DNA from: Anadara kagoshimensis
Lineage: Eukaryota; Mollusca; Bivalvia; Arcoida; Arcidae
Direction of reading: 5' to 3'
Assembly: GCA_021292105.1 (NCBI GenBank)
Contig: CM037874.1
Location: 28,341,083-28,405,082 of the forward strand
Length of the DNA stretch: 64,000 nucleotides
The notes beneath the pieces were generated by a model, which was given only the letters and a program-made list of their open reading frames with translations, had not been told where the DNA came from and did not search any database. Position numbers and translations under genes: made by a program. Of the stretch, positions 916-52,748 are shown in pieces (positions within the stretch are counted from its first letter, which is position 1; every line of letters starts with the position of its first letter).

Positions 916-3900
916 CTTGAGAGATGGAAAGCAAGGGCGTGTGAGGAAATGTTACACTGTTTTATTTTGAAGGTGGTGTAAGATTTTGACGATGGAAAGC
1001 AAAGTCGTATGTGGACCGAGGACAGAAATGTTATACTGTTTTATTTTGAAGGTGGTGTAAGATTTTAACGATGGAAAGCAAGGGCGTATGTGGACTGAGG
1101 GCAGAAATGTTATACTGTTTTATTTTGAAGGTGGTGTAAGATTTTAACGATGGAAAGCAAAGTCGTATGTGGACCGAGGACAGAAATGCTATACTGTTTT
1201 ATTTTGAAGGTGGTGTAAGATTTTAACGATGGAAAGCAAGGGCGTATGTGGACTGAGGGCAGAAATGTTATACTGTTTTATTTTGAAGGTGGTGTAAGAT
1301 TTTGACGATGGAAAGCAAAGTCGTATTTGGACCGAGGACAGAAATGTTATACTGTTTTATTTTGAAGGTGGTGTAAGATTTTAACGATGGAAAGCAAAGT
1401 CGTATGTGGACCGAGGACAGAAATGTTATACTGTTTTATTTTGAAGGTGGTGTAAGATTTTAACGATGGAGAGCAAGGGCGTATGAGGACTGAGGACAGA
1501 AATGTTACACTGTTTTACTTTGAAGGTGGTGTAAGATTTTGATGATGGAAAGCAAGGGCGTATGTGGACCGAGGACAGAAATGTTATACTGTTTTATTTT
1601 GAAGGTGGTGTAAGATTTTAACGATGGAAAGCAAAGTCGTATGTGGACCGAGGACAGAAATGTTATACTGTTTTATTTTGAAGGTGGTGTAAGATTTTAA
1701 CGATGGAAAGCAAGGGCGTATGTGGACTGAGGGCAGAAATGTTATACTGTTTTATTTTGAAGGTGGTGTAAGATTTTGACGATGGAAAGCAAAGTCGTAT
1801 GTGGACCGAGGACAGAAATGTTATACTGTTTTATTTTGAAGGTGGTGTAAGATTTTAACGATGGAAAGCAAAGTCGTATGTGGACTGAGGACAGAAATGT
1901 TACACTGTTTTATTTTGAAGGTTGTGTAAGATTTTAACGATGGAAAGCAAGGGCGTATGAGGACTGAGGACAGAAATGTTACACTGTTTTACTTTGAAGG
2001 TTGTGTAAGATTTTAACGATGGAAAGCAAGGGCGTGTGAGTACTGAAGACAGAAATGTTACACTGTTTTACTTTGAAGGTGGTGTGTTAGATTTTGACGA
2101 TGGAAAGCAAGGGCGTATGAGGACTGAGGACAGAAATGTTACACTGTTTTATTTTGAAGGTTGTGTAAGATTTTAACGATGGAAAGCAAGGGCGTATGTG
2201 GACCGAGGACAGAAATGTTACACTGTTTTACTTTGAAGGTGGTGTGTTAGATTTTGACGATGGAAAGCAAAGTCGTATGTGGACCGAGGACAGAAATGTT
2301 ATACTGTTTTATTTTGAAGGTGGTGTAAGATTTTAACGATGGAAAGCAAAGTCGTATGTGGACCGAGGACAGAAATGTTATACTGTTTTATTTTGAAGGT
2401 GGTGTAAGATTTTTAACGATGGAAAGCAAGGGCGTATGTGGACTGAGGACAGAAATGTTACACTGTTTTACTTTGAAGGTTGTGTAAGATTTTAACGATG
2501 GAAAGCAAAGTCGTATGTGGACTGAGGACAGAAATGTTACACTGTTTTACTTTGAAGGTTGTGTAAGATTTTAACGATGGAAAGCAAGGGCGTATGTGGA
2601 CTGAGGGCAGAAATGTTATACTGTTTTATTTTGAAGGTTGTGTAAGATTTTAACGATGGAAAGCAAGGGCGTATGTGGACCGAGGACAGAAATGTTATAC
2701 TGTTTTACTTTGAAGGTTGTGTAAGATTTTAACGATGGAAAGCAAGGGCGTATGAGGACTGAGGACAGAAATGTTACACTGTTTTATTTTGAAGGTTGTG
2801 TAAGATTTTAACGATGGAAAGCAAGGGCGTATGAGGACTGAGGACAGAAATGTTATACTGTTTTATTTTGAAGGTGGTGTAAGATTTTAACGATGGAAAG
2901 CAAGGGCGTATGAGGACTGAGGACAGAAATGTTACACTGTTTTATTTTGAAGGTGGTGTAAGATTTTAACGATGGAAAGCAAGGGCGTATGAGGACTGAG
3001 GACAGAAATGTTACACTGTTTTACTTTGAAGGTGGTGTAAGATTTTGACGATGGAAAGCAAGGGCGTATGTGGACTGAGGACAGAAATGTTACACTGTTT
3101 TACTTTGAAGGTTGTGTAAGATTTTAACGATGGAAAGCAAGGGCGTATGAGGACTGAGGACAGAAATGTTACACTGTTTTACTTTGAAGGTGGTGTGTTA
3201 GATTTTGACGATGGAAAGCAAGGGCGTATGAGGATTGAGGACAGAAATGTTACACTGTTTTACTTTGAAGGTGGTGTAAGATTTTGACGATGGAAAGCAA
3301 GGGCGTATGTGGACTGAGGACAGAAATGTTACACTGTTTTACTTTGAAGGTGGTGTGTTAGATTTTGACGATGGAAAGCAAGGGCGTATGCGGATTGAGG
3401 ACAGAAATGTTACACTGTTTTATTTTGAAGGTGGTGTAAGATTTTGACGATGGAAAGCAAGGGCGTATGCGGATTGAGGACAGAAATGTTACACTGTTTT
3501 ACTTTGAAGGTGGTGTAAGATTTTGACGATGGAAAGCAAGGGCGTATGCGGACTGAGGGCAGAAATGTTACACTGTTTTACTTTGAAGGTGGTGTAAGAT
3601 TTTGACGATAGAAAGCAAGAGCGTATGAGGATTGAGAACAGAAATGTTACACTGTTTTACTTTGAAGGTGGTGTAAGATTTTGTTGATGGAAAGCAAGGG
3701 CGTATGAGGATTGAGAACAGAAATGTTACACTGTTTTACTTTGAAGGTGATGTAAGATTTTGACGATGGAAAGCAAGGGCGTATGAGGATTGAGAACAGA
3801 AATGTTACACTATTTTACTTTGGAGGTGGTGTAAGATTTTGACGGTGAAAAGCAAGGGCGTATACGGACTGAGGACAGAAATGTTACACTGTTTTACTTT

Positions 3901-4330
3901 GGAGGTGGTGTAAGATTTTGACGGTGAAAAGCAAGAGCGTATGAGGATTGAGAACAGAAATGTTACACTGTTTTACTTTGAAGGTGGTGTAAGATTTTGA
4001 CGATGGAAAGCAAGGGCGTATGAGGATTGAGAACAGAAATGTTACACTGTTTTACTTTGAAGGTGGTGTAAGATTTTGACGATGGAAAGCAAGGGCGTAT
4101 GAGGATTGAGAACAGAAATGTTACACTGTTTTACTTTGAAGGTGGTGTAAGATTTTGACGATGGAAAGCAAGGGCGTATGAGGATTGAGAACAGAAATGT
4201 TACACTGTTTTACTTTGAAGGTGGTGTAAGATTTTGGTGGAAAGCAAGGGCGTATGCAGACCGAGGGCAGAAATGTTATACTGTTTTTCTTGAGGGTGGT
4301 GTTTTAGATTTTGACCCTTGTCAAGTTTGT
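916..4330. repeat. 79-bp minisatellite array, about 43 copies
   Basis: The unit GATGGAAAGCAAGGGCGTAT, then a GTGGACTGAGGACAG block, then ATGTTACACTGTTTTACTTT and a GAAGGTGGTGTAAGATTTTG block, repeats head to tail every 79 bp, with 80-bp variants carrying GGTGTGTTAG. Diagnostic variants form blocks. The left part is dominated by TATACTG, TTTATTTTG, TTTTAAC and an alternation of AAAGTCGTATGTGGACCGAG with AGGGCGTATGTGGACTGAGG. The right part (after about 3600) is dominated by TACACTG, TTTACTTTG, TTTTGAC and GGATTGAGAACAG. The last copies near 4240-4330 are most diverged. A 79-bp period is not a multiple of three and no frame stays open across the array, so it is not coding. It lies downstream of transporter exon 2. 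Confidence 0.95.
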
Positions 4331-26514: not shown

Positions 26515-26822
26515 GCTACTAACACTGGGCGAAATAACACCTTTTAGATACCTTTTGTCATTGCCAACAGGTATACAAAAGTTCAGCCCTTTATCAAGTC
26601 AACCTTTTATATACCTTTTGTTTGTCAAAAGGTTACCTTTCATATTTTGAATTGTACGAAAGATTCAAAAGGTAATGTTTCATCTTTTGGTCATAGTCAA
26701 AAAGTAATATTTCATTATCTTTCGGATAGTGTCAAAATATAACATTTTCTTTTTTCCAACTTTTGTTTAAACTTCAATGGAAAACCTTTTATATATTTTG
26801 ATTCACATGAAATTGTCATATT

Positions 26823-28460
26823 TCCATCCTTTTCTGTGTTCTATACAACATAAAATGTCATATTTCGACATCTCTCATACCTTTCATACAACACAAAATG
26901 TCATATTTCGACACCTATGCATACCTTTCATACAACACAAAATGTCATATTTCGACATCTTTCATACAACACAAAATATCATATATCGACACCTTTGCAT
27001 ACCTTTCATACAACTCAAAATATCATATTTCGACACCTATGCATACCTTTCATACAACACAAAATATCATATTTAGACACCTTTGCATACCTTTCATACA
27101 ACACAAAATATCATATTTCGACACCTATGCATACCTTGCATACAACACAAAATGTCATATTTCGACATCTTTCATACAACACAAAATATCATATATCGAC
27201 ACCTTTGCATACCTTTCATACAACACAAAATGTCATATTTCGACATCTTTCATACAACACAAAATATCATATTTAGACACCTTTGCATACCTTTCATACA
27301 ACACAAAATATCATATTTCGACACCTATGCATACCTTGCATACAACACAAAATGTCATATTTCGACATCTTTCATACAACACAAAATATCATAAATCGAC
27401 ACCTTTGCATACCTTTCATACAACTCAAAATATCATATTTCGACACCTATGCATACCTTTCATACAACACAAAATATCATATTTAGACACCTTTGCATAC
27501 CTTTCATACAACACAAAATATCATATTTCGACACCTATGCATACCTTGCATACAACACAAAATGTCATATTTCGACATCTTTCATACAACACAAAATATC
27601 ATATTTAGACACCTTTGCATACCTTTCATACAACACAAAATATCATATTTCGACACCTATGCATACCTTGCATACAACACAAAATGTCATATTTCGACAT
27701 CTTTCATACAACACAAAATATCATAAATCGACACCTTTGCATACCTTTCATACAACTCAAAATATCATATTTCGACACCTATGCATACCTTTCATACAAC
27801 ACAAAATATCATATTTAGACACATTTGCATACCTTTCATACAACACAAAATATCATATTTCGACACCTATGCATACCTTGCATACAACACAAAATGTCAT
27901 ATTTCGACATCTTTCATACAACACAAAATATCATATATCGACACCTTTGCATACCTTTCATACAACACAAAATGTCATATTTCGACATCTTTCATACAAC
28001 ACAAAATATCATATTTCAACACCTATGCATACCTTTCATACAACACAAAATGTCATATTTCGACATCTTTCATACAACACAAAACATCATATATCGACAC
28101 CTTTGCATGCCTTTCATACAACACAAAATGTCATATTTCGACATCTTTCATACAACACAAAATATCATATTTCGACATCTTTGCATACCTTTCATACAAC
28201 ATAAAATGTCTTATTTCGATATCTTTCATACAACATAAAATGTCATATTTCGACATCTTTCATACAACACAAAATATCATATTTTGACATCTTTGCATAC
28301 CTTTCATACAACATAAAATGTCATATTTCGACATCTTTCATACAACATAAAATGTCATATTTCGACATCTTTCATACAACACAAAATATCATATTTCGAC
28401 ACATTTGCATACCTTTCATACAACACAAAATGTCATATTTCGACACTTCGAATTGTTATA
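26823..28460. repeat. 44/34-bp satellite in the left arm of the CACTG element
   Basis: The monomer CATACAACACAAAATGTCAT plus ATTTCGACATCT comes in a 44-bp form (with ATGCATACCTTT) and a 34-bp form. Much of the array follows a 166-bp higher-order period, equal to three 44-mers plus one 34-mer. Several long frames (up to about 250 codons) read through it as repeated HTTQN-like peptides. They are by-products of a stop-poor repeat, not genes. Confidence 0.9.
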
Positions 28461-28628
28461 TCTGTGATACAACACAAAATGTCATCTGTTTAAAATCAAC
28501 TTAATCGTCATGTATCGGATTTTCATAATTTGACGTGTTTTTAACCTTGCACATCAAAAACGTTATTATTTTTTTACATCTTTCTCTCTTTTATTTCAAC
28601 AAGAAATGCGACATTTGATATATTTTAT

Positions 28629-28855
28629 ACGGGGGCCGCGGTGTGTGGTTAAAACACCAGTCTACAAGTTAAATTCTGTTACTATTGTGGGTTGTGGGTT
28701 CGATCCCCTGTCAGACTAGATGTGATTGTTTCTTACTGGTTTACCGATGGCTCTGTAATGTAAAATCGGGATATTCTATATCAACGAACTAGCACCATTA
28801 GTGCTTAAATGAAGGCAGACAGCAAACATACACATTCACATTCACACACCGCGTA
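28629..28855 (+). mobile_element. tRNA-headed SINE
   Basis: GGCCGCGGTGTGTGGTTAAA resembles the 5' half of a tRNA with an A box, and GTGGGTTCGATCCCC is a good B box. The body ends near ACACATTCACATTCACACAC. It lies inside the CACTG element. Confidence 0.65.
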
Positions 28856-29257
28856 AAGTTTTTAAGTTTGATCTATGGAGATGTTCTTCTGATTTATTCT
28901 GATAATATTCTTATTTTTATCTTATTACTTTTTAAGGGGACAATTGGCTCATTTAGTTTTTAAATATCAATCCAATTTTTTTTCTGCCACACAATCATTT
29001 TCCCATTGTTCTCTCATTGAGTTTACAATATTTAGATCGCTTTTTTATTTGTTCGATGATAAAATTTAAATCAATTTAAGAACAACAGGTTCTAAATATC
29101 ACCAATCATTTGGATAAATGAAAAATCTCGAGTCTTATATATATGTTCAGACAGAGAGACATGCAGATAGACATTCAGGTAAATATCGTTACAAAATTGG
29201 GTGCAGCAACGTTAAAAACGTTAAAAATAAATTTGTTGCAATGTCAGGGAAGTAACC

Positions 29258-29463
29258 CAAGTTCCAGTTTCAAAAGCATTCCTTAACTAAGATTTTCCTT
29301 AACTTGTATTTTGTAAATTTCGCATCTTTATAATTTTGTTAATTTTCTCATCATATTGAAAATCACTTCAAGCCTATAACATTTTTATTCGATTTTAGCC
29401 ATAAATACAAAAAAATTGTCGAAATTTGTTAACTTTCAAGTTACAGAATGTGAAACTGGAGCT
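29258..29463. mobile_element. Foldback MITE (CCAGTTTCACAATCATTCC type), copy 1
   Basis: AGTTCCAGTTTCAAAAGCAT then TCCTTAACTAAG at the left; the right end is TACAGAATGTGAAACTGGA. Arms are imperfect inverted repeats and the core is very AT-rich. Confidence 0.55.
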
Positions 29464-30142
29464 ATTTCATGTGAGATATAAGTATTGTACATTAGTTTAA
29501 AGACTTTAAGATATTGACAAATAGGTTTTTGAAAAGTTACAGACGGATGTGCAATTCACCATATCCGTTTGCTGTGCGTTAGGTGCAATATTAAAATTCT
29601 AAATTTGAGTATATAGGACAGTATTAAATTGGTAAAAAACAGGGAAATTTCAAATTTTAATTAATACGATATACACTATACACGTGTTTTTTCAAATTGC
29701 ATTACAATGCATACTACCAACAATAAAAATAAAATCAATTTCCTGTCTTTTTATCCAACATATGGCTTATTTGAATGAACAGGTAGTTAAATGGTATTAA
29801 CTCCAGTAGGGTCACTTTGAGAGTGTGGTATAATTTGTTTAGATGACATAAGAAATTTTAGTGTTTAGCTATAGCCCCACCCCCCTTCGATCTTAGCCTT
29901 GTTAATAATAATAGTATTTAGCCTTGTTACTATGAGGTATTACACATCTGGTAGGATATATTTGCGGTGGTCGTTTCTGTGCTAACTTTAACAACACAAG
30001 AAAAAAAAAACCTTATTTGTAGATCAGTTCAATAAAATGTTAACGATATGTAGACAAAAAACATACAAAATCATTTATAAAAATATATTTAAAAAATTAA
30101 AAATGAATTTGGTACTACATATTTGTTTACTGGTTGAAGAGG

Positions 30143-30409
30143 CCAGGTCCCGGTTTCACAATCATTTCTCGGCTAAAAATTTTCTTAACTTAATTTTTTG
30201 CAAAATCGCAAATCTTTATAATTATATTAATTTCCTAGATATTCAGGAGTTTAAGGTGCCGTTTTTAAGATCAATTCTAGACTGAAATGTTTGCATTAGT
30301 TTTGAAATTTTTTTATCAAAAGTTCTAAAAAGAAATTACCAAAATTTGCTTAATTTAAGATAAAGACTCTGATATCTTAGCTAAGGAATGATTGTGAAAC
30401 TGGGACCAG
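30143..30409. mobile_element. Foldback MITE, copy 2
   Basis: CCAGGTCCCGGTTTCACAAT then CATTTCTCGGCTAA at the left; TTAGCTAAGGAATGATTGTG then AAACTGGGACCAG at the right. Ends are better preserved than in copy 1. Confidence 0.75.
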
Positions 30410-30540
30410 AGCTATCGATTGTTTCAAAAACAGTATAATGATTTAATTATTTACTGTTGCCGTTTACTAATATAATTAAGCCAAATAAGCGATTATAACA
30501 AATTATTTTATATTTATTTTTCTTTGAGTTGATCCGAGTA

Positions 30541-30862
30541 ATGGTGTTTAACGTCCCAGTGAAAAATATTTCACTTATATCAAGACATCGCCAGCTATAG
30601 GTCATTGTGCATAAATTTTGCCTGTGCGTTACGCTGATGCAATATACAGCAGTTTGTTTTTATCGTGCCACGCCTACCGTGACACGGGACCTTGTTTATC
30701 CGGAAAAAAAACATGACTTCCATTTTGGAATGCCGAGTGCTTGGCGAAAGAACAGTGACTACCCACTTTCAATTCTTGGGCCAGACCTGGTCGGTGTTCG
30801 AACCCACGACCTGCCACTCACGGACGGAGCGAGCACTCTACCAACTAAGCTACTGCAGTTAC
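30541..30862 (-). mobile_element. S1 SINE, near complete
   Basis: The minus-strand head contains GTAGCTTAGTTGGTAGAGTG and GGTCGTGGGTTCGAACACC (A and B boxes of a tRNA-like promoter). The body has GGTGTTTAACGTCCCAGTG and ATTTCACTTATATCAAGACA on the plus strand. Frames at 30607-30882 and 30692-31006 only cross it. Confidence 0.8.
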
Positions 30863-30956
30863 AAGTTATTGTTTTTCTTTGATAGCTATTATAAGTGGTT
30901 TGGTCCTGATATAAGTACTTATGTATATGATGATCTATGTTGCATTCTATTTGAAT

Positions 30957-31005
30957 GTACAGTGCGGGTGTGCCGAACGTTTGACACTAAGCCAACAAAA
31001 TATTG
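30957..31005. mobile_element. Family A MITE, left end only
   Basis: CAGTGCGGGTGTGCCGAACG then TTTGACACTAAGCC, preceded by TA, matches the family A left terminus. The right end is absent. Confidence 0.5.
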
Positions 31006-31686
31006 ATTAATGAATCGGCAATTGATTGATTGGTTAATCGAATGGGGCTTTACATCCAAGTTAAGAAATGCTATTACATCGAGAGGTCACTTGCTATAGT
31101 TAAAGTATTATTTTTTACCTTTGAAGTCCGTTCAGGGGAATTTGCAGGGAGGGTTTGGTTCAGTATATAGACTGAGTGATCTCTGATCATAGTTTTTGAC
31201 ATTAATTACAGACCAAATGTCCAACGACGGCAAAAATCACAGTAAGTGCGCATTAGTACAAAGCAGATTTGAAACACTTGCCGAACCCAGCACCACATGA
31301 ATGTATGTGTGTTGAGATTGATAGTTGGGATTAATAAAAAACTCGTTTTTTCACGAATAACTGAATAATTGTTGATGAGACATAAAACCCACTCAATTAA
31401 CTATTTCTTATAGTGTCAACATAGTCTGAGGGTAGTATCAGTTTGTGTTTTTAACATAAGATGTGAAACTCGAATTGTTATATAATAAATGACAAACAGC
31501 TGGAAATATGCATGGTGAAAATATGCAAAGACCAAGTTTGTATCCATTTTTAACGAATTAACACCGGCCATATACTTGTGTCAGTCCAACACCCCAATAC
31601 AGACCAATGTTTAAATTGTTTGGCAGGGATATTTATATTTCAATAAGCTGGAATACAACTTGTGCTGATGTAGCAAACATGTTGTA

Positions 31687-32992
31687 AGATAGGTAAAGTT
31701 TGCTACTTGGGAAGAAAAATTAGCTATTAGTAGTCAGTTACTTGCAGAAGAAAAGTTAGCCACCAGTAGTTAGTTACTTAAAGAAGTAAAGTTAACTATT
31801 ATATAATTAGTTGTTAGTTACTTGTAGAAGAACAGTTAGCTATAAGTAGTCAGTTAATTGTAGAAGAGAAGTTAGCTACCAGTAGTCAGTTACTTGTACA
31901 AGAACAGTTAGCTATTAGTAGTCGGTTACTTGTAGAAGAACAGTTAGCTATTAGTAGTCGGTTACTTGTAGAAGAACAGTTAGCTATCAGTAGCCAGTTA
32001 CTTGTAGAAGAAAAGTTAGCCACCAGTAGTCAGTTACTTGTAGAAGAACAGTTAGCTATTAGTAGTCGGTTACTTGTAGAAGAAAAGTTAGCTATTAGTA
32101 GTCGGTTACTTGTAGAAGAACAGTTAGCTATTAGTAGTCGGTTACTTGTAGAAGAACAGTTAGCTATTAGTAGTCGGTTACTTGTAGAAGAACAGTTAGC
32201 TTTTAGTAGTCGGTTACTTGTAGAAGAACAGTTAGCTATCAGTAGTCGGTTACTTGTAGAAGAACAGTTAGCTATTAGTAGTCGGTTACTTGTAGAAGAA
32301 CAGTTAGCTATTAGTAGTCGGTTACTTGTAGAAGAAAAGTTAGCTATTAGTAGTCGGTTACTTGTAGAAGAACAGTTAGCTATTAGTAGTCGGTTACTTG
32401 TAGAAGAACAGTTAGCTATTAGTAGTCGGTTACTTGTAGAAGAACAGTTAGCTATCAGTAGGCAGTTACTTGTAGAAGAAAAGTTAGCCACCAGTAGTCA
32501 GTTACTTGTAGAAGAACAGTTAGCTACTAGTAGCCAGTTACTTGTAGAAGAAAAGTTAGCTATTAGTAGTCGGTTACTTGTAGAAGAACAGTTAGCTATT
32601 AGTAGGCAGTTACTTGTAAAAGAAAAGTCAGCTATTAGTAGTCAGTTACTTGTAGAAGAAAATTTATCTACCAGTAGTCAGTTACTTGTAGAAAAACAGT
32701 TAGCTATTAGTAGGCAGTTACTTGTAAAAGAAAAGTTAGCTATTAGTAGTCAGTTACTTGTAGTAGAAATTTTAGCTACCAGTAGTCAGTTACTTGTAGA
32801 AGAACAGTTAGCTATTAGTAGGCAGTTACTTGTAAAAGAAAAGTTAGCTATTAGTAGTCGGTTACTTGTAGAAGAACAGTTAGCTATTAGTAGTTTGTTA
32901 TTTGTAGAAGAAAAGTTAGCTATTAGTAGTCAGTTACTTGCAGTAGAAAAGTTAGCTATTAGTAGTCGGTTACTTGTTAGAGAAAAGCTATG
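31687..32992. repeat. 36-bp satellite, about 36 copies, starting with a foldback terminus
   Basis: The unit GTTAGCTATTAGTAGTCGGT plus TACTTGTAGAAGAACA repeats every 36 bp, with variants such as CAGTAGCCAGTTAC. The array begins at AGATAGGTAAAGTTTGCTAC, which is the terminal sequence of the 193-bp foldback at 37352-37544. The arm of that foldback carries the same GTTAGCTACTAG and CTTGTAGAAGAAAAG words. No opposite terminus or target duplication is found at 32992. The 153-codon minus-strand frame is a repeat artefact. Confidence 0.9.
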
Positions 32993-33539
32993 TGTGACCC
33001 CTACATGAAGTAACACGTACAAATGTAAAACCTATCACAAATTTAACAAAATAATACCAAACATGTAGTAACGAACAACAAAATGTAATAAATTTGTCAA
33101 AAATGTATTAAATGTTGGTCACAAATGTAGCAAAATGAAAAACAGGTAATATCATAATTTTCAACATGGATAATATCTCCGTGATAGTTATTGAATAATA
33201 ATGACAAGCACTGTGGTGTCTCTTGTCCTTGCCGTGTATTTTTAAGACTGTAACCCCACCACCTTGTTGGACTCGGTGTTTTACGTGTACCCATTAGCGA
33301 CTACAGATTCTAAAACGTTCACCAGATTGAATTACTGATATAGTGAACAGTCGTTTTCAGCCAAAACATGGCTATGCGCAAGTCTATATGAAGTTCATGC
33401 ACGAGAACATTTATAAGTCGTTATTTTTGCGTGTTTCTTATTGGTGACCTCATCTTCGATCGGTTAAATATCAATTATTTATCGTAATTAATATTCCACG
33501 TTCTGTCTCGTTCTGTTTCGCCACTTTCTGATTTCCGAT

Positions 33540-33850
33540 CATGGTCAGACTTTGGTTTAAACCCACGACCTACGACCGTCGGTACCTAAAAGGTAGAATG
33601 CACGCTCTGATTGTGGAAGATTGGGGGAGTGTAACCTTGTCCGGGTCCCACCAAGCCTCAAAAATGTTATTTAGAAATAAAAGTCATTAGGGTCCTTCGG
33701 ATAAGACCTTAAAACCGATGTTCTGTGCAGCGGTTAACGTGGCACGTTAAAGAATCCTCATATTACAATATCGTTAGCAGAGTCAAATTTTCTGTAACTT
33801 CGCATGTAACTGGCGAAGTCTCGATTTAAGCAAAATACTCATTCAGTCAA
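33540..33850. mobile_element. Degraded S1 SINE pieces in opposite orientations
   Basis: 33540-33615 looks like a minus-strand S1 head (AAACCCACGACCTACGACCG). 33690-33850 looks like a plus-strand S1 body (GGTCCTTCGGATAAGACC, GGCGAAGTCTCGATTTAAGC). They may be two insertions or one rearranged copy. Confidence 0.45.
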
Positions 33851-34278
33851 AGAATCCATGCTCTTGTGTAATTATAAGTTACACTTGACGTGGGATGGAC
33901 ATTGAAGTTTGCGTATCTATCAACAGTCTTTAAAATATGTAATCTTTGTAAAATCGAAATGATCAAAATGTAGCACCTCTATGCAGACCTTTGATCAGAT
34001 GACTTCTCGGAGGGGGTAAGAGGCGTATATAAATAAAATAGAAAAAAACTTTGAAAATTGCTAAAGAATAAGAACTACCACTTAAAACCTATATGAATTG
34101 CGAAATATCTTGTCATCTCCGGTTTTATTTGATTTGGTCATCAAGTCGGTTTCATTAAAATTTTTAATAGGCACTTATTTAAGCAGATTTTTTAATATTC
34201 AAGAATAATTTGAAGAACTTTATTCATTTGTGTGTCCCGGATTTATACCAAATATTCAAATTTTAAAGCTTTCATACG

Positions 34279-34967
34279 CAGGGACGTAGCCAGGCGTACG
34301 TTTGTACGCAAAAACGTCCACATCGTTTTCGCAAAAAAAAAAAACTAGAGAGAGAATGAGAATATAAAATATTTCTTATACCAAACCGTTGGTCTTCACC
34401 GGAAATGTTATATACGAATGCGGTTTATACCTGACTTCGATAGCCTCCGAGGTGCGGTTCCGGTGTCTTGACTTTGCCGGCATGGCAAAACAATTGAAAC
34501 TGTCTGATTTGTTCTCGGCTTCAAAAGCCGATAACTGGAGCGCAGTTAGTCCAGCAGCTCAACAGCAGAATCCAGATACACAAGATAAACCTGAGGTTAT
34601 AAGTAAACCAACATCATCAACTTCAAATGTCCATAAACCTGGGCCAAAGTATCCCGATCATTTCGCTTTGAATGATGATTAGTTGAGATGCACCAATACA
34701 AAACTCCAGCTTCTCGCAGACTTTCTCAATTATTGAGTGTGTTGTTTTCGTAGTGCTTATGCATACAACATCAGATCCCCTTGTACCTCGTCTTCAGGTT
34801 TAAGAATGAACCAGTCCTCAAAAGAACGACAAAACTACCACAGCATAGCATAATATTATTAGAAAAATTCTGATAAATAGCGCCCTGGAGGGCCGAAAAT
34901 TCGCATCAGGGCGGCCCCCAAACCTCTTTAGGCGTCCACATCATAAACACCCCCAGCTACGCCCCTG
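34279..34967 (+). mobile_element. hAT-like element (hAT5-type, 5-bp target), internally deleted
   Basis: The left end is CAGGGACGTAGCCAGG and the right end, reversed, is CAGGGGCGTAGCTGGG. Both flanks read ATACG (34274-34278 and 34968-34972). CAGGG...CCCTG ends are typical of hAT transposons, and a 5-bp duplication is known for a hAT subgroup. The inner left arm (GCAAAAACGTCCACATCG) is partly mirrored on the right (GGCGTCCACATC). The 689-bp length is far below an autonomous hAT. Confidence 0.7.
34482..34682 (+). pseudogene. N-terminal remnant of a hAT/ZMYM-type transposase
   Basis: The frame from the Met at 34482 (inside a longer frame from 34389) reads MAKQLKLSDLFSASKADN and later KPGPKYPDHFALNDD, stopping at 34680-34682. 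Short lead segments of the type QKTLSDFF, then a low-complexity linker, precede the TTF-type zinc finger in hAT/ZMYM1-like transposases. The zinc finger, RNase-H-like core and dimerisation region are all absent. It lies wholly within the hAT-like element. The match is by style of sequence and is modest. Confidence 0.4.
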
Positions 34968-35491
34968 ATACGCAAATATTCGCTTATACAATCCGTGGGG
35001 GAGGGGGTAGTTTCAGGTACAATTTCTATCATTTTTTACATTCAAGACTACTAGCTGGTTATTTGTTTTTTTAAACATTCACTATTCAATTATATCATTA
35101 TAAACTATAATATATTGTGTTAGTTATACTGTATATTATTACTGGATATATCTTTGTTTTTTCGGGTTGGTAACCTACATGTAATTGATACCCAATCGCC
35201 TATACTTTACCAGCACGTGTAAAGGTTTTCATTTTGATGAAAAACTCCAATTCAGTTGGAAACTATTACAATCAGATTCCAATGTATACAAATCAGCAGA
35301 ATGATGAAATTTCAGAATTCTGACAAGTCATACGATTGTGTTTTATTCAATGATGCTGTCTTGAACGAAGTTCGCTAATATCAAAATCAGTTTGTGATGT
35401 TTTTGATGTTGTAGTGGAGAATGCAATTTTTCAGCTATTGCAGACGAAAGCAAGGCTAATATCATACAGTTTCACATAATTTGCGCAAGTT

Positions 35492-35765
35492 CGTAGGGAC
35501 GTCACCAGCTATAGGTGAGGAGGCAGAAAGTTTACCTTCGCAGTATGCTAGAACAATGTAAAGGAAGGGGTGTTTAACGTGCCAAGCCTGTCGTGACACG
35601 CGTACGGGACATCGATTTTAAGGTCTCTTCCGAATGACCTCGCTACTTTCATTTTTAATGCCAAGTTCTTGACGAAAGAACAGTAACTACTTTTTCAACT
35701 CTTGGTAGACCCGGTCAGGGTTCAAACCGAAGACCTGTCACATATGGAGCGAGCACTCTATGCTC
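35492..35765 (-). mobile_element. S1 SINE, diverged
   Basis: AGGGACGTCACCAGCTATAG, GTGTTTAACGTGCCAAGCCT and GTCTCTTCCGAATGACCTCG are S1 body words. The minus-strand head near 35700-35765 keeps GAGTGCTCGCTCC. Confidence 0.7.
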
Positions 35766-36616
35766 CCTAAGGACAAGCGTCCACTAATGCATTATTACGT
35801 GAATAGTCTCAAATTATCATACTGTTCTTCCTGTTCATTTTACTGACAGTGATTAAGTTATTCGTTTCCTCATTTCACTGAATGCAAAACGTCATGCGAG
35901 AAGTAGAAAACTGCACATTTTAACATTTTTAGTTTAAACACGCACAACATCCCGCGCTTACAAGGCGTACGGTCTATTACTACACCATCGGGGCGATCCA
36001 GATTATATCATTTTATTTTTTAACATAAAATAAAATAATTTTTTATACTGTAAATCAAATAAATACAAATTACATCGAAATGTATCTTATGAGGTTAACT
36101 AATAAAAATAGGAATTCCAAGCTATTTCTCGTTTTTCTTATTAACATTTCAATTAATGCATTTTGTGTTCTAAAAATCAGATTGACGTATTGTCTGCAAC
36201 AATTTTCCTTTATGGAATTCTCTATTTCGGAAGACTTTAATTCTGAGCCGCAAAAACTAATTACCAGCAATAAATAGATGAATGTTGACACCGGACTTGT
36301 GTTTCTGTCGATTGTGGGACGGAATGGGATAGACTAATTGCATCCTCAAATGTGAAGAAGATTCATGCTTATTTATGATTCCAAATTTCGTAATATTTCG
36401 AATAAGCCAGGTCTTTTCTCTTATTTTTAAATTTTACATTAATGATCATTCTTTCATATTGGTTCGGCTATACCTTTCTTGGACCTTCAGTCCAGGTGAG
36501 CTGTTGTCTTTGTTCTACTCCGAGCACCAACTCCTCGTACAAAAGATATTGAAACTGCAATTTTGGTTCTCGGAAAAATAAGGAAAATAAAAGTTTGTTT
36601 TATTGACGGTGACTCG

Positions 36617-36617
<1 letters not shown>

Positions 36618-36647
<30 letters not shown>
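36618..36647. repeat. (CA)n microsatellite
   Basis: About 14 CA dinucleotides, followed by a short imperfect duplication of GTAGCGGGACTGAGCTAG around 36650-36735. Confidence 0.9.
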
Positions 36648-36650
<3 letters not shown>

Positions 36651-36774
36651 TAGCGGGACTGAGCTAGCCGTGGTGTTGTGGGCGAGATTTCCAAGGTAGG
36701 AAATCGAGGAATGTAGCGGAACTGAGCTAGTCGCATAATAGCTATAGACTGATTTACTGCCAGCCTTTCTGGTC

Positions 36775-36865
36775 CGAAACTTTTAGCCTTGTGGTAGAAC
36801 GCTCGCTTTTCACTCGGAGGTTCGGGTTCGATCCTAAAGCAGGGCACTCGATGAGAAAGTAATTT
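36775..36865 (+). mobile_element. tRNA-like SINE head
   Basis: TAGCCTTGTGGTAGAACGCT and GAGGTTCGGGTTCGATCC give A- and B-box spacing of a pol III promoter. No full tRNA fold and no clear SINE body follow. Confidence 0.5.
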
Positions 36866-37351
36866 TTCTGGTGTTTTTCCCTGTTACACACACGCGCGCA
36901 CACATATATAATTTAGTTCGAAAGGTGCAGTGGATAAATACATTGGCTCAGAACCATCAGATATGTATTTTACACCTACGAAATTTATTCGAATGTAAAT
37001 GGTGCTTAAAACTCATACAACTCGTTAAGTGTCCATCTTTTATTTCAAACTGAACAGCGGAAAATAAGGCTTTGATATAATTAGATTTAATAAATTCTAT
37101 CATTAAATTCAGATGGTCTATATACAAAGAAATATTTCTTTAAAAAATGTAGTTTGACTATTTTCACTATTTTCTAATTTAATATTAAAAATCAAGAAGT
37201 TAAAAACTGATGTTTTGAAATCAAATTTGCCACATTGTTCGCAACTTTGTCTAGTAGGAAAAATACCACACAAAATCGCATTCATCCTTGGAGTGAAAGA
37301 CTCAATTCAAATTTTCCGAATTTCCATCTATACTTAATAAAAATAATAGAA

Positions 37352-37544
37352 AGAAGGTAAAGTTAGCTACTAGTAACTGGCTACCAGTAGCTGGCTACTT
37401 GTAGAAGAAAAGTTAGCTGCTAGTATCCAGTTACTTGTTGGAGAAAAGTTAGCTACTACAAGTCAGATACTTGTTAGAAAAGCTACTAGTAGCTAACTTT
37501 TCTTCTACTATTAGCCAGTTACTAGTAGCTAACTTTACCTATCT
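37352..37544. mobile_element. 193-bp foldback with 9-bp target duplication (MULE-like)
   Basis: AGAAGGTAAAGTTAGCTACT at the left and, reversed, AGATAGGTAAAGTTAGCTAC at the right. The flanks are an exact 9-bp repeat, ATAATAGAA (37343-37351 and 37545-37553), the size made by Mutator-like transposases. Both arms contain copies of GTTAGCTACTAGTA and CTTGTAGAAGAAAAG, the ancestor-like words of the 36-bp satellite at 31.7-33.0 kb. It has no coding capacity. Confidence 0.8.
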
Positions 37545-38034
37545 ATAATAGAATGACATTTATAAAAAATCATTTCTAATTTATACATAAAAATTCGGAA
37601 TCATAACATATAGCATGTTTGAGGTGAGTGCTCACTCAAACTATAGGATTAATCAATCCACAACTTCATTAGGTTTGGCTACACTAACTCAGCATGACAA
37701 AATTAAGTGGTTTATACTACATGTACTATCTTTTATGTCGGGTAATGAATTGGTTTTTTTAACATTACGCAATGGTTCTTTTGTTTTTGTTGGGTCAGTA
37801 AATTCGATGAACAACCCGTGTCTGAATAGATAGGCTGGTATGTGCTCGTGGGTAGGTTGGTATTTTCTTAGAACACTCTTTAAGGTTAAAATATTTATTG
37901 TTTTACGGGTATTTAATAATTCTTTGTCTATATCTTTTATCACATGTTAAAAGTTTCTCATACGTCTTTTAAGGCTGGGTGATGTATTTTATACAAATTG
38001 CTAACATTGTTTAGATATTTCTGTGACTTTATGT

Positions 38035-38056
38035 TATTATTATTATTATTATTATT
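38035..38056. repeat. (TTA)n microsatellite
   Basis: About seven TTA/ATT triplets. Confidence 0.85.
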
Positions 38057-38949
38057 GACTTACACAATAGAACACTACATTAACATTTCAATACGACGGT
38101 TATAAACCTTTATTTGCATGTTAAGAGACAAGAATAACTTTATTTTTGTCCAGAATGTAATGGAGAACCTCGCAGATCAACGATAGTTCATACAAAATGT
38201 ACATATTTTGTATTATCATTGGAATTATTACAAATTGATAAATTAAAGCCAGTGACAATACATTATGTATTAAAATTAATAAACAGTTTTTACTACATGT
38301 ATTTTATAAAAGATTTGGATTGAAACTCATGTTTTCATAGCAAATTAATACAAAGTAACTTATGTTTTTATAATAATGATAATATGGAAGAAGACATTTG
38401 ATCATTCTTCCATACCTAGACAAAGAAAAAGATTTATGTAAGGATCGGATAATAAGTCTTATATCATCACAAACAGAAACATTATTTGGTGACAGTAAGG
38501 AGTTACAATTTGATGGTCAATAACAACCCCCACTGTGTAATGTGCCATTAACCAAATGTTCTCATTTCCTCTGTATCTCTATATCTAATTTAAACAGGCA
38601 ATTTTGTTCATTTTTAACTCTTGAGAGGAAAGAACGCACATCGCTGAAACAACTCTTAAAATCAAGTACATGTATCTATGACAGATAGTGAAGTGATCAT
38701 TCTATTGATATCGTGCAAAAAGATCATGAAAGAATAATACAAAGTGAAGAAAGTGTGGCTACATTGTACTTTCCTGAATATTATTTAATATATAAACAGG
38801 TTTTCAGTATCAGATGGTGTGCGCGCTTACTGGAGTTAATGGCGAAAAATTCATGTGTTTCCGATTTTCGTAGTAACATTATAATGCATCAATAGATATA
38901 TCAAAACACTGAATTTTATAATGGAATATTATCATCAAAATGTATGTGA

Positions 38950-40600
38950 TTATTATTAAAAACGTAAAAATGTCATCTTTTTGGAAAGTCAAAAGATTTG
39001 GATATGTTAAAAAAGTTGTATTTTGTACAGCAAAATATATAAAAAGGCTAGGAAAGGTCATCTTTTGGAAGGTCAAAAGATGTGGATATGTCATAAAAGG
39101 TTATATTTTGTTGTACAAAATGTGTAGAAAGGCCTTCCAAAAGGTCATCTTTTTGGAAGGTCAAAAGATTTGGTCATGTCACGAAAGGTCATATTTTGCA
39201 GTACAAAATGTATAGAAAGGCTAGAAAAGGTCATCTTTTGGAAGGTTAAAAGATTTGGATATGTCACGAAAGGTCACATTTTGCAGTACAAAATGTATAG
39301 AAAGCTAGGAAAGGTCATCTTTTGGAAGGTTAAAAGATTTGGATATGTCATAAAAGGTCATATTTTGTAGTACAAAATGTATAGAAAGGCTAGGAAAGGT
39401 CATATTTTGGAAGGTTAAAAGATTTGGATATGTCATAAAAGGTCATATTTTGTAGTACAAAATGTATAGAAAGGCTAGGAAAGGTCATCTTTTGGAAGGT
39501 TAAAAGATTTGGATATGTCATAAAAGGTCATATTTTGTAGTACAAAATATATAGAAAGGCTAGGAAAGGTCATCTTTTGGAAGGTTAAAAGATTGGATAT
39601 GTCATAAAAGGTCATATTTTGTAGTACAAAATGTATAGAAAGGCTAGGAAAGGTCATCTTTTGGAAGGTCAAAAGATGTGGATATGTCATAAAAGGTCAT
39701 ATTTTGTAGTACAAAATATATAGAAAGGCTAGGAAAGGTCATCTTTTGGAAGGTCAAAAGATTTGGATATGTCATAAAAGGTCATATTTTGTAGTACAAA
39801 ATATATAGAAAGGCTAGGAAAGGTCATCTTTTGGAAGGTCAAAAGATTTGGATATGTCATAAAAGGTCATATTTTGTAGTACAAAATATATAGAAAGGCT
39901 AGGAAAGGTCATCTTTTGGAAGGTCAAAAGATTTGGATATGTCATAAAAGGTCATATTTTGTAGTACAAAATATATAGAAAGGCTAGGAAAGGTCATCTT
40001 TTGGAAGGTCAAAAGATTTGGATATGTCATAAAAGGTCATATTTTGTAGTACAAAATATATAGAAAGGCTAGGAAAGGTCATCTTTTGGAAGATCAAAAG
40101 ATGTGGATATGTCATAAAAGGTCATATTTTGTAGTACAAAATATAGAAAGGCTAGGAAAGGTCATCTTTTGGAAGATCAAAAGATTTGGATATGTCATAA
40201 AAGGTCATATTTTGTAGTACAAAATATATATAAAGGCTAGGAAAGGTCATCTTTTGGAAGGTCAAAAGATTTGGATATGTCATAAAAGGTCATATTTTGC
40301 AGTACAAATATATAGAAAGGCTAGAAAGGTCATCTTTTGGAAGGTCAAAAGATTTGGATATGTCATAAAAGGTCATATTTTGTAGTACAAAATATATAGA
40401 AAGGCTAGGAAAGGTCATCTTTTGGAAGGTCAAGAGATGTGGATATGTCATGAAAGGTCATATTTTCCTGTACAAAATGTTTAGAAAGGCTAGAAAAGGT
40501 CATCTTTTGGAAGGTCCACAGATGTAGATATGTCATAAAAGGCCATATTTTGCTGTACAAAATGTATAGAAAGATATATTAGATGTGGATATATCAGAAA
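38950..40600. repeat. 85-bp satellite in the right arm of the CACTG element
   Basis: The unit GGTCATATTTTGTAGTACAA, then ATATATAGAAAGGCTAGG, AAAGGTCATCTTTTGGAAGG and TCAAAAGATTTGGATATGTC, repeats about 19 times. The centre (39.7-40.1 kb) is nearly identical between copies and both edges decay. Read on the minus strand it shares the order CCTTTC-ATA then ACAAAATAT with the left-arm satellite, so the two arrays may descend from one subterminal motif. Confidence 0.9.
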
Positions 40601-40999
40601 AGTCCAACTCTTGTCGCATAAAATCTATTGAAAGGTTAGCAAAAGTTTATATTTTGGAAAATCAAAAGGTGTAGGTATGCCACAAAAGGTCAAGATGTGA
40701 TGTATAAAATATATAAAAAGGCCTACAAAGATAAACTTTTGGAAGGCTAAAATGTCAAAAAAGGTGAAATTTTATTGAACAATATGTGATAAAAGTGAGC
40801 CATTTGTAAAAAACAAAAGGTATACAAAAGATCATTTTTCGACACCTTTCCAAAAAGTTGGATCAAAAGACAATGAAAGCTTTATAAAAGATGGTCTTTT
40901 ATTAACCTTTTGACTACATTAAAAGGTGATAATTCGCCCAGTGTAAAACAGTAAATTTTTCAACATTATGTATTTGCGACCCTAGCAGTTCTTCATACA

Positions 41000-43076: not shown

Positions 43077-44462
43077 GTTACGCCACATAGCGGTGTTGCC
43101 ACATAAACGTGTTCCAACACGACTATGCGGGGAATTTCAACGCATAAAGAAGACGCTTTTATGCGACAAAAAGGCTACATTCCGCCGCATAAAGAAAACA
43201 TTTACTTGTTAAATCTGGAGAGAAAACTGTCGCCAAATCATTCAACTCAACATACAGATACATAGATGACGTTCTGTCTCTTAACAATCCTAAATTTGGA
43301 GACTATGTAAATGTCATCTATCCTGGTGAGCTTGAAATAAAAGAAACGACTGATTCCTCAAGTTCTGCTTCATATTTAGACTTATACCTGAATTATGACG
43401 CACAAGAAAGGCTACATTTGAAACTTTATGACAAACGTGATGACTTCAATTTTCTATTGTCAACTTTCCTTTTTTATGCAGCAATATACCTGCTTCTCCT
43501 GCTTATGGTGTATTTGTTTCCCAATTAATACGCTATGGTAGAGCTTGTTCCCACTACGGGGACTTTGTAGGCTGCTTGCAAATAAATTGTTGACTCAGGG
43601 ATATTGCAAGCCTAGGCTTATCAAGGCCCTCAAAAAGTTTTATGGCCGTCATCACAGTATTGTTGATAAGTTTGATGTCTCTGTGTCCAAGATTGCCTTG
43701 GATATATTTGACGTCTCATAGTTCCATGTTCCTTTCACACAATTTTGATTACACACGTGACGGGTGTAGCTAGCTAAACAGGAGGTGCTTACCCTTCCGG
43801 AGCACCCGGCCTCACTTCCCTGGTGGAAGTTCACGTGTCTAACCTAACTTGTCAGTTCCAAAGTTTTTACTTTGCTTCTGGATTGTGATTCGGAAATGGA
43901 TAAGTATGTTTGTTTTTGATTACTACCATCACCTACACCTTCATCATCTTTACCAACTTCACTAAAAACACCACCACCATCACTATCATCGTGATGATCA
44001 TCATTATATTATTATTATTAAAAGCAAAAGTAGAAATTCTGCAAAAATCGCAATTTTACGACCACCAACATTACAGTCACCATCGCCACCGCCGTCGGCA
44101 CGACGACGGTAACATCGTCGTCGCGCTCCAATCACCCCCGTTCCCGTCCTCCACCTTCTCCTTACAATTATTGTTACCATTATCAACAAAATCCTAAATT
44201 CTCAATTGTCACCTTCGTCGTCATAATTAATGGCACCACCACCGTTTTTGTCGAGATATAAGCTCTTTTTAAAATTCACACTAAGTCGTTAAAATTAGTT
44301 CTCTTTATGCGCCAAAAAGGCAACCTTGCGCCGCATATAAGCAACACATCTTTATGCGTTGAACGCCGCCGCATAAACGTGGTCGACCTCTTTATGCGTT
44401 GAAATTCCCCGCATAGACGTGTCGGGCGCGTTTATGCGGCAACACCGCTATGTGGCGTAACA
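43077..44462. mobile_element. Family M MITE interrupted by retroelement R
   Basis: The left arm GTTACGCCACATAGCGGTGT runs to about 43203 and the right part resumes at about 43920 with ACCATCACCTACACCTTC, ending CACCGCTATGTGGCGTAACA. The target duplication is ACGCCTT, exact, at 43070-43076 and 44463-44469. Without the insertion the MITE would be about 670 bp. Subterminal TTTATGCG boxes are well preserved. Confidence 0.85.
43204..43919 (+). mobile_element. Retroelement R with reverse-transcriptase remnant
   Basis: This is the longest R copy in the window. Its coding part (about 43215-43690) includes the box YRYIDDVLSLNN, a YxDD reverse-transcriptase catalytic motif, and downstream LYDKRDDFNF. 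A non-coding tail follows, with ACACACGTGACGGGTGTAGC, GGAGGTGCTTACCCTTCCGG, CTTCCCTGGTGGAAGTTCAC and a GTATGTTTGTTTTTG end. I have seen proteins of this type as repeated reverse transcriptases in bivalves. Placement among Penelope-like or other non-LTR classes is not settled from this fragment. The copy is 5'-truncated and degraded. It sits inside a family M MITE with a possible short duplication (TTAC). Confidence 0.7.
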
Positions 44463-49348: not shown

Positions 49349-52300
49349 GGGTCAAATGCTGGTACGGGTCTCCAGGAGCAATGCTTATGCCACTAGGCTT
49401 CGCCATTTAAAACCTTGAGTTAATGCCCAACCGTCTCATATAGGTTCTGCCAGCAAGTCACATGTCACACCTCCCCGTGGTGGCCCTGGTAATGCTTATG
49501 TAGTTAAGTGACAGTGTCAAGAGGCGAGCATCCGGCGCCTTAAAAATAACTGGAACCCGTGGCTAAGGGAAGGAAAACCCTGACAGAAAACCACTGGCCC
49601 TCCGAGTCCAGGGGGTTAAGCTTAGGGCTAACAACCCTAACTTGTAAAACAAACATTGTTACAGAAACAGTAACGAGAAATATATCTATACCTGTGGACG
49701 AGAACCTCTCCAGGGCCACCACTGGAACCAGTATGACTGTGGGTAGTCAAAACCACCAGGAAGCTACCTGCATGATTAGAGAGGCACTCAACACGGCCAA
49801 AACCAAGGTCAGAAGAGGATTTTGGAGCGTGCGAACCATGTACGCAGCAGGAAAATTGGCACAAGTAACAGCAGAAATGAGGAAATACAACTTACATGTG
49901 CTGGGAGTCAGTGAGAGCAGATGGGTCAATTCGGGAAGAATGCGAACAACAACAGGTGAAACTCTATTGTATTCTGGCCGAGAAGATGGACAACACCATG
50001 AAGGGGTGGCAGTTATACTCAAGAAAGGAGTAGAAAAGTTCTTGATGGAATGGAAACCAGTTAGCAGCAGATTGATGTTGGTGAGACTTAGAGGAAAGCA
50101 GGTCAACACTACGGTTTTCCAGTGTTATGCACCTACTAACGATGCAGATGAAGAAGACAAAGATGCTTTTTACGAACAACTGCAAAGAGAACTAGACAAC
50201 ACGCCAGACCATGATATCAAGATCATCATGGGAGATATGAATGCTAAAGTAGGAGCAGATAATGAACTCTACAATAGTGCAATGGGGCACCATGGTTGCG
50301 GTATCATGAATGAGAATGGACATAGGCTTGCAGAGTTTTGTACCACCAACAACTATGTGATCGGAGGAACTCTATTCCCCCACCGAGACATTCATAAGTT
50401 GACATGGCATTCACCAAACGTGAGAGATCAAAACCAAATTGACCACATCATGATAAATGGTAAATGGAGGAGATCATTGCTTGATGTGAGGGTTAAGAGA
50501 GGCGCTGATGTTGGTAGTGATCACCACCTGGTAACAGTATCTATCAAACTAAAACTGCACAACACACAAGGAAAGCGTACAGCAAGGAAGAGATTTGATG
50601 TGGACAAACTCTGAGATATCAAGACAAGGCATGAGTTCAACATCACACTCAAAAATAAGTTTGGCATTCTACAAAACCTACAATCAGAAAACAAGACAAC
50701 ATCGGTTGATGAAAAATGGAAAGAAATTTGTAACATCTACACTGAAGCTAGCGAAGAGTGCATTGGCTACAAACCAAAACAAAAGAACAAAGAATGGATA
50801 ACACCTAACACTTGGAAAATGATTGAAACAAGAAAATGCACCAAAAAGAAAATACTTGAAGCCAAATCACTGAGACTTAAGGAGAAACATCAACAAGATT
50901 ACAGTGAAATACAGAAACAGGTGAAAAAAGCTGTACGTACAGATAGAAGAACATACATAGATGCCTTAGCAACAAAAGCAGAAGAGGCAGCCAACAAAGG
51001 GGAACAAGGAAATCTATACAAAATAACAAAAGTAATATGTGGGAAAAACAGACCATCACCAAACCTTCCCATCAAAGACAAACAAGGAAAGCTGATAACA
51101 TCAGAGAATGAAATGGAGGAACGGTGGACAGAACATTTTAAGGAGATCTTAAACAGACCACCTCCGATCCATGAACCTGAAATCAGTGAACCCGAATCAG
51201 AGTTGAATATCAACACCAATCCACCAGACGTTCCAGAAATTACAGCAGCCATACAGTGTTTAAAAAATGGTAAATCTCCTGGGAGTGACAATTTAAATGC
51301 TGAGCTATTCAAGACGGACGGACCCACTCCTTACAGCTACCATCCTCCAACCAACCTTCAAAGAAATCTGGGAAAGTAAGACCATACCAGATCAATGGAA
51401 TCATGGAGTCATCATTAAGAAACCAAAAAAAGGAAATTTAAATGACTGTAATAACTGGCGTGGAATAACACTTCTCTCCATTCCAAGTAAAATCATGGCT
51501 AAAATTATCATCAGAAGAATAGCCAAAGCAGTAGATGTCAAACTACGGAAGGAACAAGCAGGGTTCAGACCAGGACGAGGATGTATCGACCAAATATTCG
51601 CACTGAGAAACATCATTGAACAGTGTACGGAATGGCAGCGACAACTTTATCTGAACTTCATCGATTTTGAAAAGGCCTTCGACAGCATTCATAGAAACAG
51701 TCTCTGGAGAATTGTGCGTTCGTACGGCATCCCCCAACATCTTATAGACATCATCAAGAGTTTCTACGTCAACTTCAGATGCAAAGTTGGAAACTCAAGC
51801 ATCGAGTTTGGTGTCAAAACTGGAGTTCGCCAAGGTTGTGTAATGTCATCAACGCTCTTCATCATAGCCATCGACTGGGTCATGAGGAACACAACATCAG
51901 ACATCCCAAGATGCATCAGATGGGGAACGTTCACAACACTTGAAGACTTGGACTTTGCCGATGATATTGTCCTGTTTTCCCACTCCCATCAGCACATCCA
52001 AGACAAAACACATAGGCTCCACGAGTATGCTTGAAACATTGGACTGAAGATCAATGCTAAGAAAACTGAAGTCATGACCCTAAATGTGAATAACCCACAA
52101 GGAATTAAAATGGACAATCACATCCTCCCATTTACAAACAACTTTACTTATTTAGGGAGTATTGTCACAACAGATGGTGGAGCAGACAGGGACATTCAGC
52201 AGAGACTAGCCAAAGCCAGAGCAGCATTTAAGAACTTGCAAGCTGTGTGGAAATCCAGCCAATACACCAACAGGACAAAGCTCAAACTGTACAAAAGCTG

Positions 52301-52748
52301 CATCATACCAATTCTTTTGTACGGTTCAGAGTGCTGGAAAATGACAGAGAACGACCTTAACAAACTGTCAACTTTCCACACCAAATCCCTGAGAAGAATC
52401 CTAAAAGTATTTTGGCCAAATACCATCTCAAATCAGGACCTTCTCAGCAGATGCGACCAGGAGGATATGGCCACCATCATCACCAGGAGACGATGGATCT
52501 GGATTGGCCACATACTCAGAAGGGACCCTGAATCCATCATAAAGACAGCCCTCTTCTGGACACCAGAAGGAAAAAGGAAGAGAGGGAGACCAAAAGTTAC
52601 CTGGCGGCGAACAGTAGAAGCAGAGATGAAAGAGCATAAGAGAAGCTGGGGCACTCTCCAGAAGCTAGCCAGTGACAGACAAGGATGGAGAGCCCTCGTT
52701 ACTGCCCTATACGCCAAAGGCGTCACGGACAATAAGTAAGTAAGTAAG
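49349..52748 (+). mobile_element. APE-type LINE, full-length-looking 3.4 kb insertion
   Basis: It is flanked by an 8-9 bp target duplication, GATATCTCG (49340-49348 and 52748-52756, the first G shared with the tail). It starts GGGTCAAATGCTGGTACGGG and ends in a (TAAG)n tail, a short tandem repeat typical of several non-LTR clades. A 210-bp 5' leader precedes a single long coding region with endonuclease and reverse transcriptase. The one-ORF layout of about 3.4 kb and simple-repeat tail resemble RTE-like elements, but the clade is not proven. It is inserted within an M MITE, so it is younger than that copy. Confidence 0.85.
49559..52739 (+). pseudogene. LINE endonuclease/reverse transcriptase, three lesions
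   Basis: The endonuclease is at about residues 85-335 from 49559. It has SESRW (catalytic Glu), YAPT, GDMNAKVG and SDHHLV; the usual WNVRT box reads WSVRT, so the catalytic Asn is Ser. The reverse transcriptase has GFRPGRGCIDQI, FIDFEKAFDS (motif A), VRQGCVMSS (motif B) and FADD (motif C). The C-terminus has RRRWIWIGHILRRDP and GKRKRGRPKVTWRR, a usual finish for such LINE proteins. Lesions: TGA at 50612-50614, a frame change near 51305-51320 and TGA at 52032-52034. Both TGA codons stand where Arg or Lys is expected, so CGA to TGA decay is plausible. The natural stop is TAA at 52737-52739. Confidence 0.85.

Follow-up and report, generated by a model that had tools for sequence, protein, structure and literature searches.

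Non-autonomous DNA transposons are usually short. In the CACTA/EnSpm (CMC) group, ends of the form CAC..GTG together with 3-bp target duplications are regarded as consistent with EnSpm (PMC12730594), and the subterminal repeats span several hundred bases (PMC8978399). Jozin, a large CACTA element of Chenopodium (16,523 bp), has a transposase domain and a single array of satellite DNA (satDNA), with a 171-bp unit, near its 3' end (PMC8978399). Tetris, an apparently non-autonomous foldback element of Drosophila virilis, holds tandem repeats of one 220-bp type inside its terminal inverted repeats (TIRs), and longer satDNA arrays grew from this repeat (PMC4079207). In oyster, non-autonomous DNA transposons of Helentron type spread satellite-like tandem repeats (PMC7492417), the repeats of Helentrons being central (PMC9659126), and the enlarged En/Spm elements of Chondrus crispus reach 16-20 kb and have 4-5 open reading frames (PMC6431247). 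Other satellite-linked transposons include Atenspm/ENSAT1 (PMC9659126), and a curated bivalve library contains two CMC transposons (PMC10294476). Hence, transposon-borne satellites are already known (PMC8978399, PMC4079207, PMC9659126). In this study, we characterized a large element with satellite arms found in 64,000 bp of the bivalve Anadara kagoshimensis (GenBank assembly GCA_021292105.1, contig CM037874.1, positions 28,341,083 to 28,405,082, forward strand), hereafter the window, and the genomic family to which it belongs.

The element occupies positions 26523-40943 of the window. It very probably represents a young family of about 50 DNA transposons of CACTA/EnSpm type, 11-26 kb long, which move by cut and paste but not autonomously; they would depend on a helper acting in trans, and their arm arrays would be enlarged subterminal repeats. 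The family shares with CACTA/EnSpm elements the CAC..GTG ends, the 3-bp duplications and the subterminal repeats. It differs in that no transposase was seen, in that paired ends lie 11-26 kb apart with none closer among 45 pairs, and in that the termini read CACTGGG and not CACTA. Like Jozin, it is large and has an array near an end, but its arrays lie in both arms and in the centre and no gene was found. Like Tetris, it carries tandem repeats in its arms, but the two arms have different units and no outside array appeared among the listed left-unit matches. Its TIRs, its 3-bp duplications and the arrays placed in its arms set it apart from Helentrons, and the open reading frames described in the Chondrus elements of comparable size were not found here. 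What stands out is that several traits come together: arrays not only in each arm but also in the centre, no visible gene, a recent spread and no short pair among those found. A family of about 50 copies keeps at least 11 kb of DNA without coding signal. Titles and abstract openings, in a coverage that excludes most subscription journals, yielded no report of this family.

The window copy is one transposition unit of 14,421 bp, with exactly the limits that the earlier note had given it. Its left end, CACTGGGCGAAATAACACCTTTT from 26523, and the reverse complement of its right end (40943), CACTGGGCGAATTATCACCTTTT, are identical at 21 of 23 positions, and TAA flanks both sides. That a single unit of 14.4 kb had moved, as that note proposed, is borne out by the copies found in the genome (1.115 Gb in 36 contigs, the window being C18:28341083-28405082). 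With the left 300 bp as query, the best 40 of 57 candidate places showed 97-100% identity; with the right 300 bp, the best 40 of 91 showed 94-100%, and both sets include the window. A terminus pattern allowing up to two mismatches matched 107 times, against none for its reversed control, indicating that the element ends are not chance occurrences. Pairing covered 100 of these 107 matches, 90 of which form 45 neighbouring inverted pairs of a left-type and a right-type end, with a median spacing of 13,374 bp and a range from 11,161 to 25,926 bp. A left-type AA end is joined with a right-type AT end in 44 pairs and with an AC end in one; three of the 45 belong to a C3 cluster (38.287-38.373 Mb) in which assigning mates by proximity is uncertain. 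A search for an 11-bp end added a 46th pair by giving C2:12368932 its mate, C2:12355842. Identical 3-bp neighbours flank 18/18 copies whose two flanks were read, namely the window copy, 10 fetched copies, five joined from search loci, C3:51645804 and C10:12107296. The first 17 of these comprise 12 different target triplets (88% A+T), and the 18th has AAT.

Membership in CACTA/EnSpm is likely. The ends are inverted and of the form 5'-CAC..GTG-3' (CACTGGGCGAA... at both ends), the target duplication is 3 bp in all copies read, and inverted subterminal repeats are present in both arms of the 11 copies compared in full. A transposase of PF02992 type is absent from the 45 paired copies, so that the family can at most be a non-autonomous member, in agreement with the CACTA-like, non-autonomous nature that had been proposed from the window alone. 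PIF/Harbinger elements have targets restricted to TWA-like triplets and are also described as making 3-bp duplications; the triplets found here include ACG, AAG, AAT and ACT, and we rejected this assignment.

The eleven copies compared were the window copy, nine others between 11.2 and 12.6 kb and a single longer one (14.6 kb), a sample that leans towards short copies. All eleven contain three arrays (44/34, 36 and 85 bp) of varying length, about 0.12-1.6 kb on the left, 0.36-1.27 kb in the centre and 1.0-1.6 kb on the right; the 36-bp central array had been missing from the earlier description. Interior A measures 2.8-3.3 kb and interior B 3.9-7.4 kb, with 97-99.6% identity among copies outside the arrays. 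Most variable columns differ in a single copy only (250/297 in interior A, 339/391 in interior B), and the mean divergence from the column majority is 1.1% and 0.85%, respectively. This star-like pattern of variation is what a burst from a single master copy would produce, and the roughly 50 copies have spread recently, at about 1% mean divergence from the majority. The arrays predate this spread. Right-array monomers are on average as similar within a copy (0.9258, 784 comparisons) as between copies (0.9258, 1500 sampled); middle or terminal monomers compared between copies reach 0.954 and 0.935, whereas the first and last monomers of one copy reach 0.887. These values indicate that the array existed before the spread and was not remade in each copy. 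The notion that this insertion shows transposon ends seeding satellites thus finds no support in arrays shared by all eleven copies. Nor did the many secondary insertions seen in the window copy survive the comparison: among differences of at least 60 bp from the 10 other copies, it has one private insertion (about 694 bp). This insertion, hAT-like as named by eye and ending in CAGGGRCGTAGC, is missing from 9/10 other copies, and in copy L029 a larger deletion spans its site. The rest of the interior is common to the family and could include older, family-wide insertions; private insertions or deletions also occur in several other copies.

On the origin of the arms, we propose that an EnSpm-type element would supply the transposase in trans, as the ends, the 3-bp duplications and the subterminal repeats suggest, and that this transposase would bind the inverted ends together with subterminal zones rich in oriented ACCTTT words. 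In the arms, the arrays would be enlarged subterminal repeats, already long in the master copy, and since the spread they would mainly have changed in length. In the window copy, ACCTTT occurs 35 times forward and 2 times reversed in the left arm, 2 and 41 times in the right arm, and 4 and 3 times in the interior; the word is oppositely oriented in the two arms of 11/11 copies, although these counts are not independent, as the arrays repeat the word. Each subterminal zone has it 6 times against 2, read inward. The oriented words fit the view, put forward in the earlier note, that the arrays may be expanded transposase-binding sites. The 85-bp right unit matches the right subterminal zone with a score of 144, against a maximum of 72 in 300 shuffles, as would be expected of enlarged subterminal repeats. 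Without the 23-bp ends, the two subterminal zones also resemble each other (1/300 shuffles reaches the score).

Alternatively, the element could have captured its arrays from satellites of independent origin in the genome. The resemblance of the left unit to its subterminal zone is weak (9/300 shuffles reach the score) and the central 36-bp unit is unlike either arm, both of which favour a capture. We nevertheless consider this origin unlikely, given the clear match of the right unit, words that are oriented alike in both arms relative to the ends, and the placement of the left unit in the genome. A 31-bp piece of this unit has 1050 matches with up to two mismatches (control 0). Among the 100 listed, which are exact ones on C1 to C10, 94 are found in the same orientation on the inner side of a listed left terminus, at most 5.1 kb from it (five of them beyond 2 kb), and the remaining six fall in the rearranged C3 cluster. 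Thus, no free left-arm satellite outside the element was found among these 100 of 1050 matches, which again lends no support to the idea that this insertion shows ends seeding satellites. The family shows satellite arrays being carried and dispersed by a CACTA-type element. Enlarged subterminal repeats remain our preferred origin, and the family offers many positioned replicates for studying changes in array length. More speculatively, and with considerable doubt, long satellite arms might act as transposase-loading platforms, whose length selection maintains in mobile copies, that let a transposase acting in trans move at least 11 kb of non-coding DNA. If true, this would explain the lack of shorter deletion derivatives among the pairs found. 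In copy L035 the left array measures only about 0.12 kb by TRF, so a long left array is either unneeded or was lost after insertion.

The interior showed no sign of a gene. Taken together, variable sites show no preference for a codon phase (p 0.39 and 0.67 for the two interiors); three overlapping windows of 450 columns reach p below 0.05, the lowest being 0.019. In copy L035 the longest interior frames, 149 and 130 amino acids, stay under the maxima of 160 and 167 obtained from mononucleotide shuffles of the same interior. Nine frames of the window gave no Pfam match above the curated cut-off except GP67 on a frame of the 36-bp repeat, read as a repeat artefact, and scans of the element for tRNAs and Rfam families returned no match. 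Codon phase, frame length and Pfam led us to reject the interior as coding DNA. On these grounds, and with no PF02992 in the 45 copies, it is very unlikely that the family is autonomous, with a transposase split into small spliced exons too short to see. Such a gene would account for the more than 7 kb of array-free interior kept in each of the 11 copies and for the absence of pairs below 11 kb, and the longer interior frame also fits it. The longest paired copy (L049-L051, C10:12107296-12133221, 25.9 kb) was considered as an autonomous member and rejected, as an insert nested at a site within it accounts for its extra 14 kb or so. The matches flanking this insert overlap by 6 bp, and it contains an rva_4 integrase-core frame of 381 amino acids and a HECT-domain frame of 693.

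Candidate helpers are abundant in this genome. PF02992 (Transposase_21) has 88 matches, many in open frames of 800-931 amino acids, which fall by eye into about 20 groups by score. Two transposase copies, at C11:27708287 and C17:10040077, do not differ at any of the 3570 bases read, so the EnSpm superfamily looks recently active.

Several results weigh against a non-autonomous family with a helper in trans and arms enlarged from its own repeats. None of the 88 transposase matches lies inside the 45 paired copies, and the nearest is 175 kb off. The autonomous EnSpm relative sharing these ends, which the earlier note had suggested seeking, was not found in the searches made: neither the 13-bp nor the 11-bp end led to a transposase partner, ends of CACTGGGCGAAA followed by a non-T base not having been searched. 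Seven places have the 13-bp end unchanged but no C at position 16; one of them is in the family, and the control gives two. The 11-bp end followed by a base other than A occurs at 72 places against 33 for the reversed control; 14 of the 72 come from one local tandem repeat of C8 and five lie in family copies, and none of the places is closer than 215 kb to a transposase match. Two abundant transposase lineages were rejected as partners, with no matching end pair within 8.5 kb, one of them having a lone CCCAGTG. Furthermore, the 149-residue frame is longer than the 95th-percentile length in its shuffles (121), the 130-residue frame being below its own (137). Finally, the similarity between the left and the inverted right array units is no more than suggestive, the score being reached by 2/1000 monomer shuffles, by 0/1000 with a left dimer, and by 16/1000 in the same-strand control. 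The proposal that the arms are different satellites holds by unit (44/34 against 85 bp) but is qualified by this possible inverted similarity. A foldback element such as Tetris, in which long inverted repeats would hold one and the same tandem repeat in each arm, was rejected on the different arm units, the inverted similarity being only suggestive. For the non-autonomous family, the helper may share only CACTG and the subterminal words.

End relatives with T at position 8 occur at four places (control 0), one of which, C1:21378289 (L060), is related to the left end but old and interrupted, with two stretches 85% and 90% alike. No array match was seen there within the 1.5 kb read.

Insertion was precise. 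At eight left-end loci, the window included, the likeness starts at the terminal C and the flanks are all different. Once joined, the two flanks of the copy C8:40551392-40564205 align without a break at the insertion point with a repeat of the window that keeps a single TAA (83% identity over 257 columns free of gaps, with 32 columns gapped; score 202, against 20 on the other strand). A related unfilled site thus exists for a copy other than that of the window; at the window locus itself, the unfilled site should read CTACTAAAACAG. The copy at C3:51645804, which has a TAG duplication, was rejected as a second case, as a shared repeat starts beside the junction and makes it uninformative. Spread by segmental duplication, or by any route other than cut-and-paste transposition, is highly improbable in view of these flanks, the matching duplications and the unfilled site, even though the C3 cluster does look like a duplication of inserted copies. 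In this cluster (C3:38287620-38373473) ten family termini lie within 86 kb, apparently as duplicated or nested copies, some of which have lost ends. The reading of the two ends as unconnected elements, or as solo termini lying some 14 kb apart by chance, with 10 of the 100 listed termini lacking a mate in the first pairing (four in the C3 cluster, one the old relative, one later mated and four others), is refuted by the 45 inverted pairs and their matching duplications.

The anatomy of the window copy is summarized in the table. The TRF periods of 78 and 122 bp in the left array fit mixtures of 44 and 34 bp.

Table. Features of the element and its surroundings in the window (positions count from the first base of the window).
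Feature	Position	Strand	Basis
Target-site duplication TAA, left	26520..26522	.	flank read
Left TIR, 23 bp, left type ...AAATAACACC	26523..26545	+	end comparison, genome terminus search
Left subterminal zone, ACCTTT/CCTTTTG words	26546..26842	+	sequence read
Left-arm array, 44-bp units and 34-bp variants, ~40 units	26843..28446	+	TRF
Interior A, ~3.25 kb, without coding signal, 97.2-99.3% identity among 11 copies	28447..31703	.	
Central array, 36-bp unit, variable length, in 11/11 copies	31704..32977	+	TRF
Interior B, without coding signal, 97.0-99.6% identity in aligned columns of 11 copies	32978..38967	.	
Insertion private to the window copy, ends judged hAT-like by eye, ATACG(C) duplicated (5-6 bp)	34280..34974	.	
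Inverted-repeat module related to the 36-bp unit	37355..37540	.	
Right-arm array, 85-bp unit, ~19 units	38968..40573	-	TRF
Right subterminal zone, degenerate relatives of the 85-bp unit	40574..40920	-	unit-versus-zone comparison
Right TIR, 23 bp	40921..40943	-	end comparison, genome terminus search
Target-site duplication TAA, right	40944..40946	.	flank read
Dispersed repeat outside the element, related unfilled site for copy C8:40551392-40564205	43648..43920	+	

Inverted words of AGGTAAAGTT type adjoin the central array and recur in the inverted-repeat module (window 31690-37540); they are possibly a fossil nested element common to the family. Outside the element, the window contains a 79-bp tandem array of about 42 units (946-4302), whose unit differs from those of the element's arrays, as well as, both judged by eye, a frame resembling a long interspersed nuclear element (49550-52736) and a reverse-transcriptase-like YIDDV frame (43193-43525).

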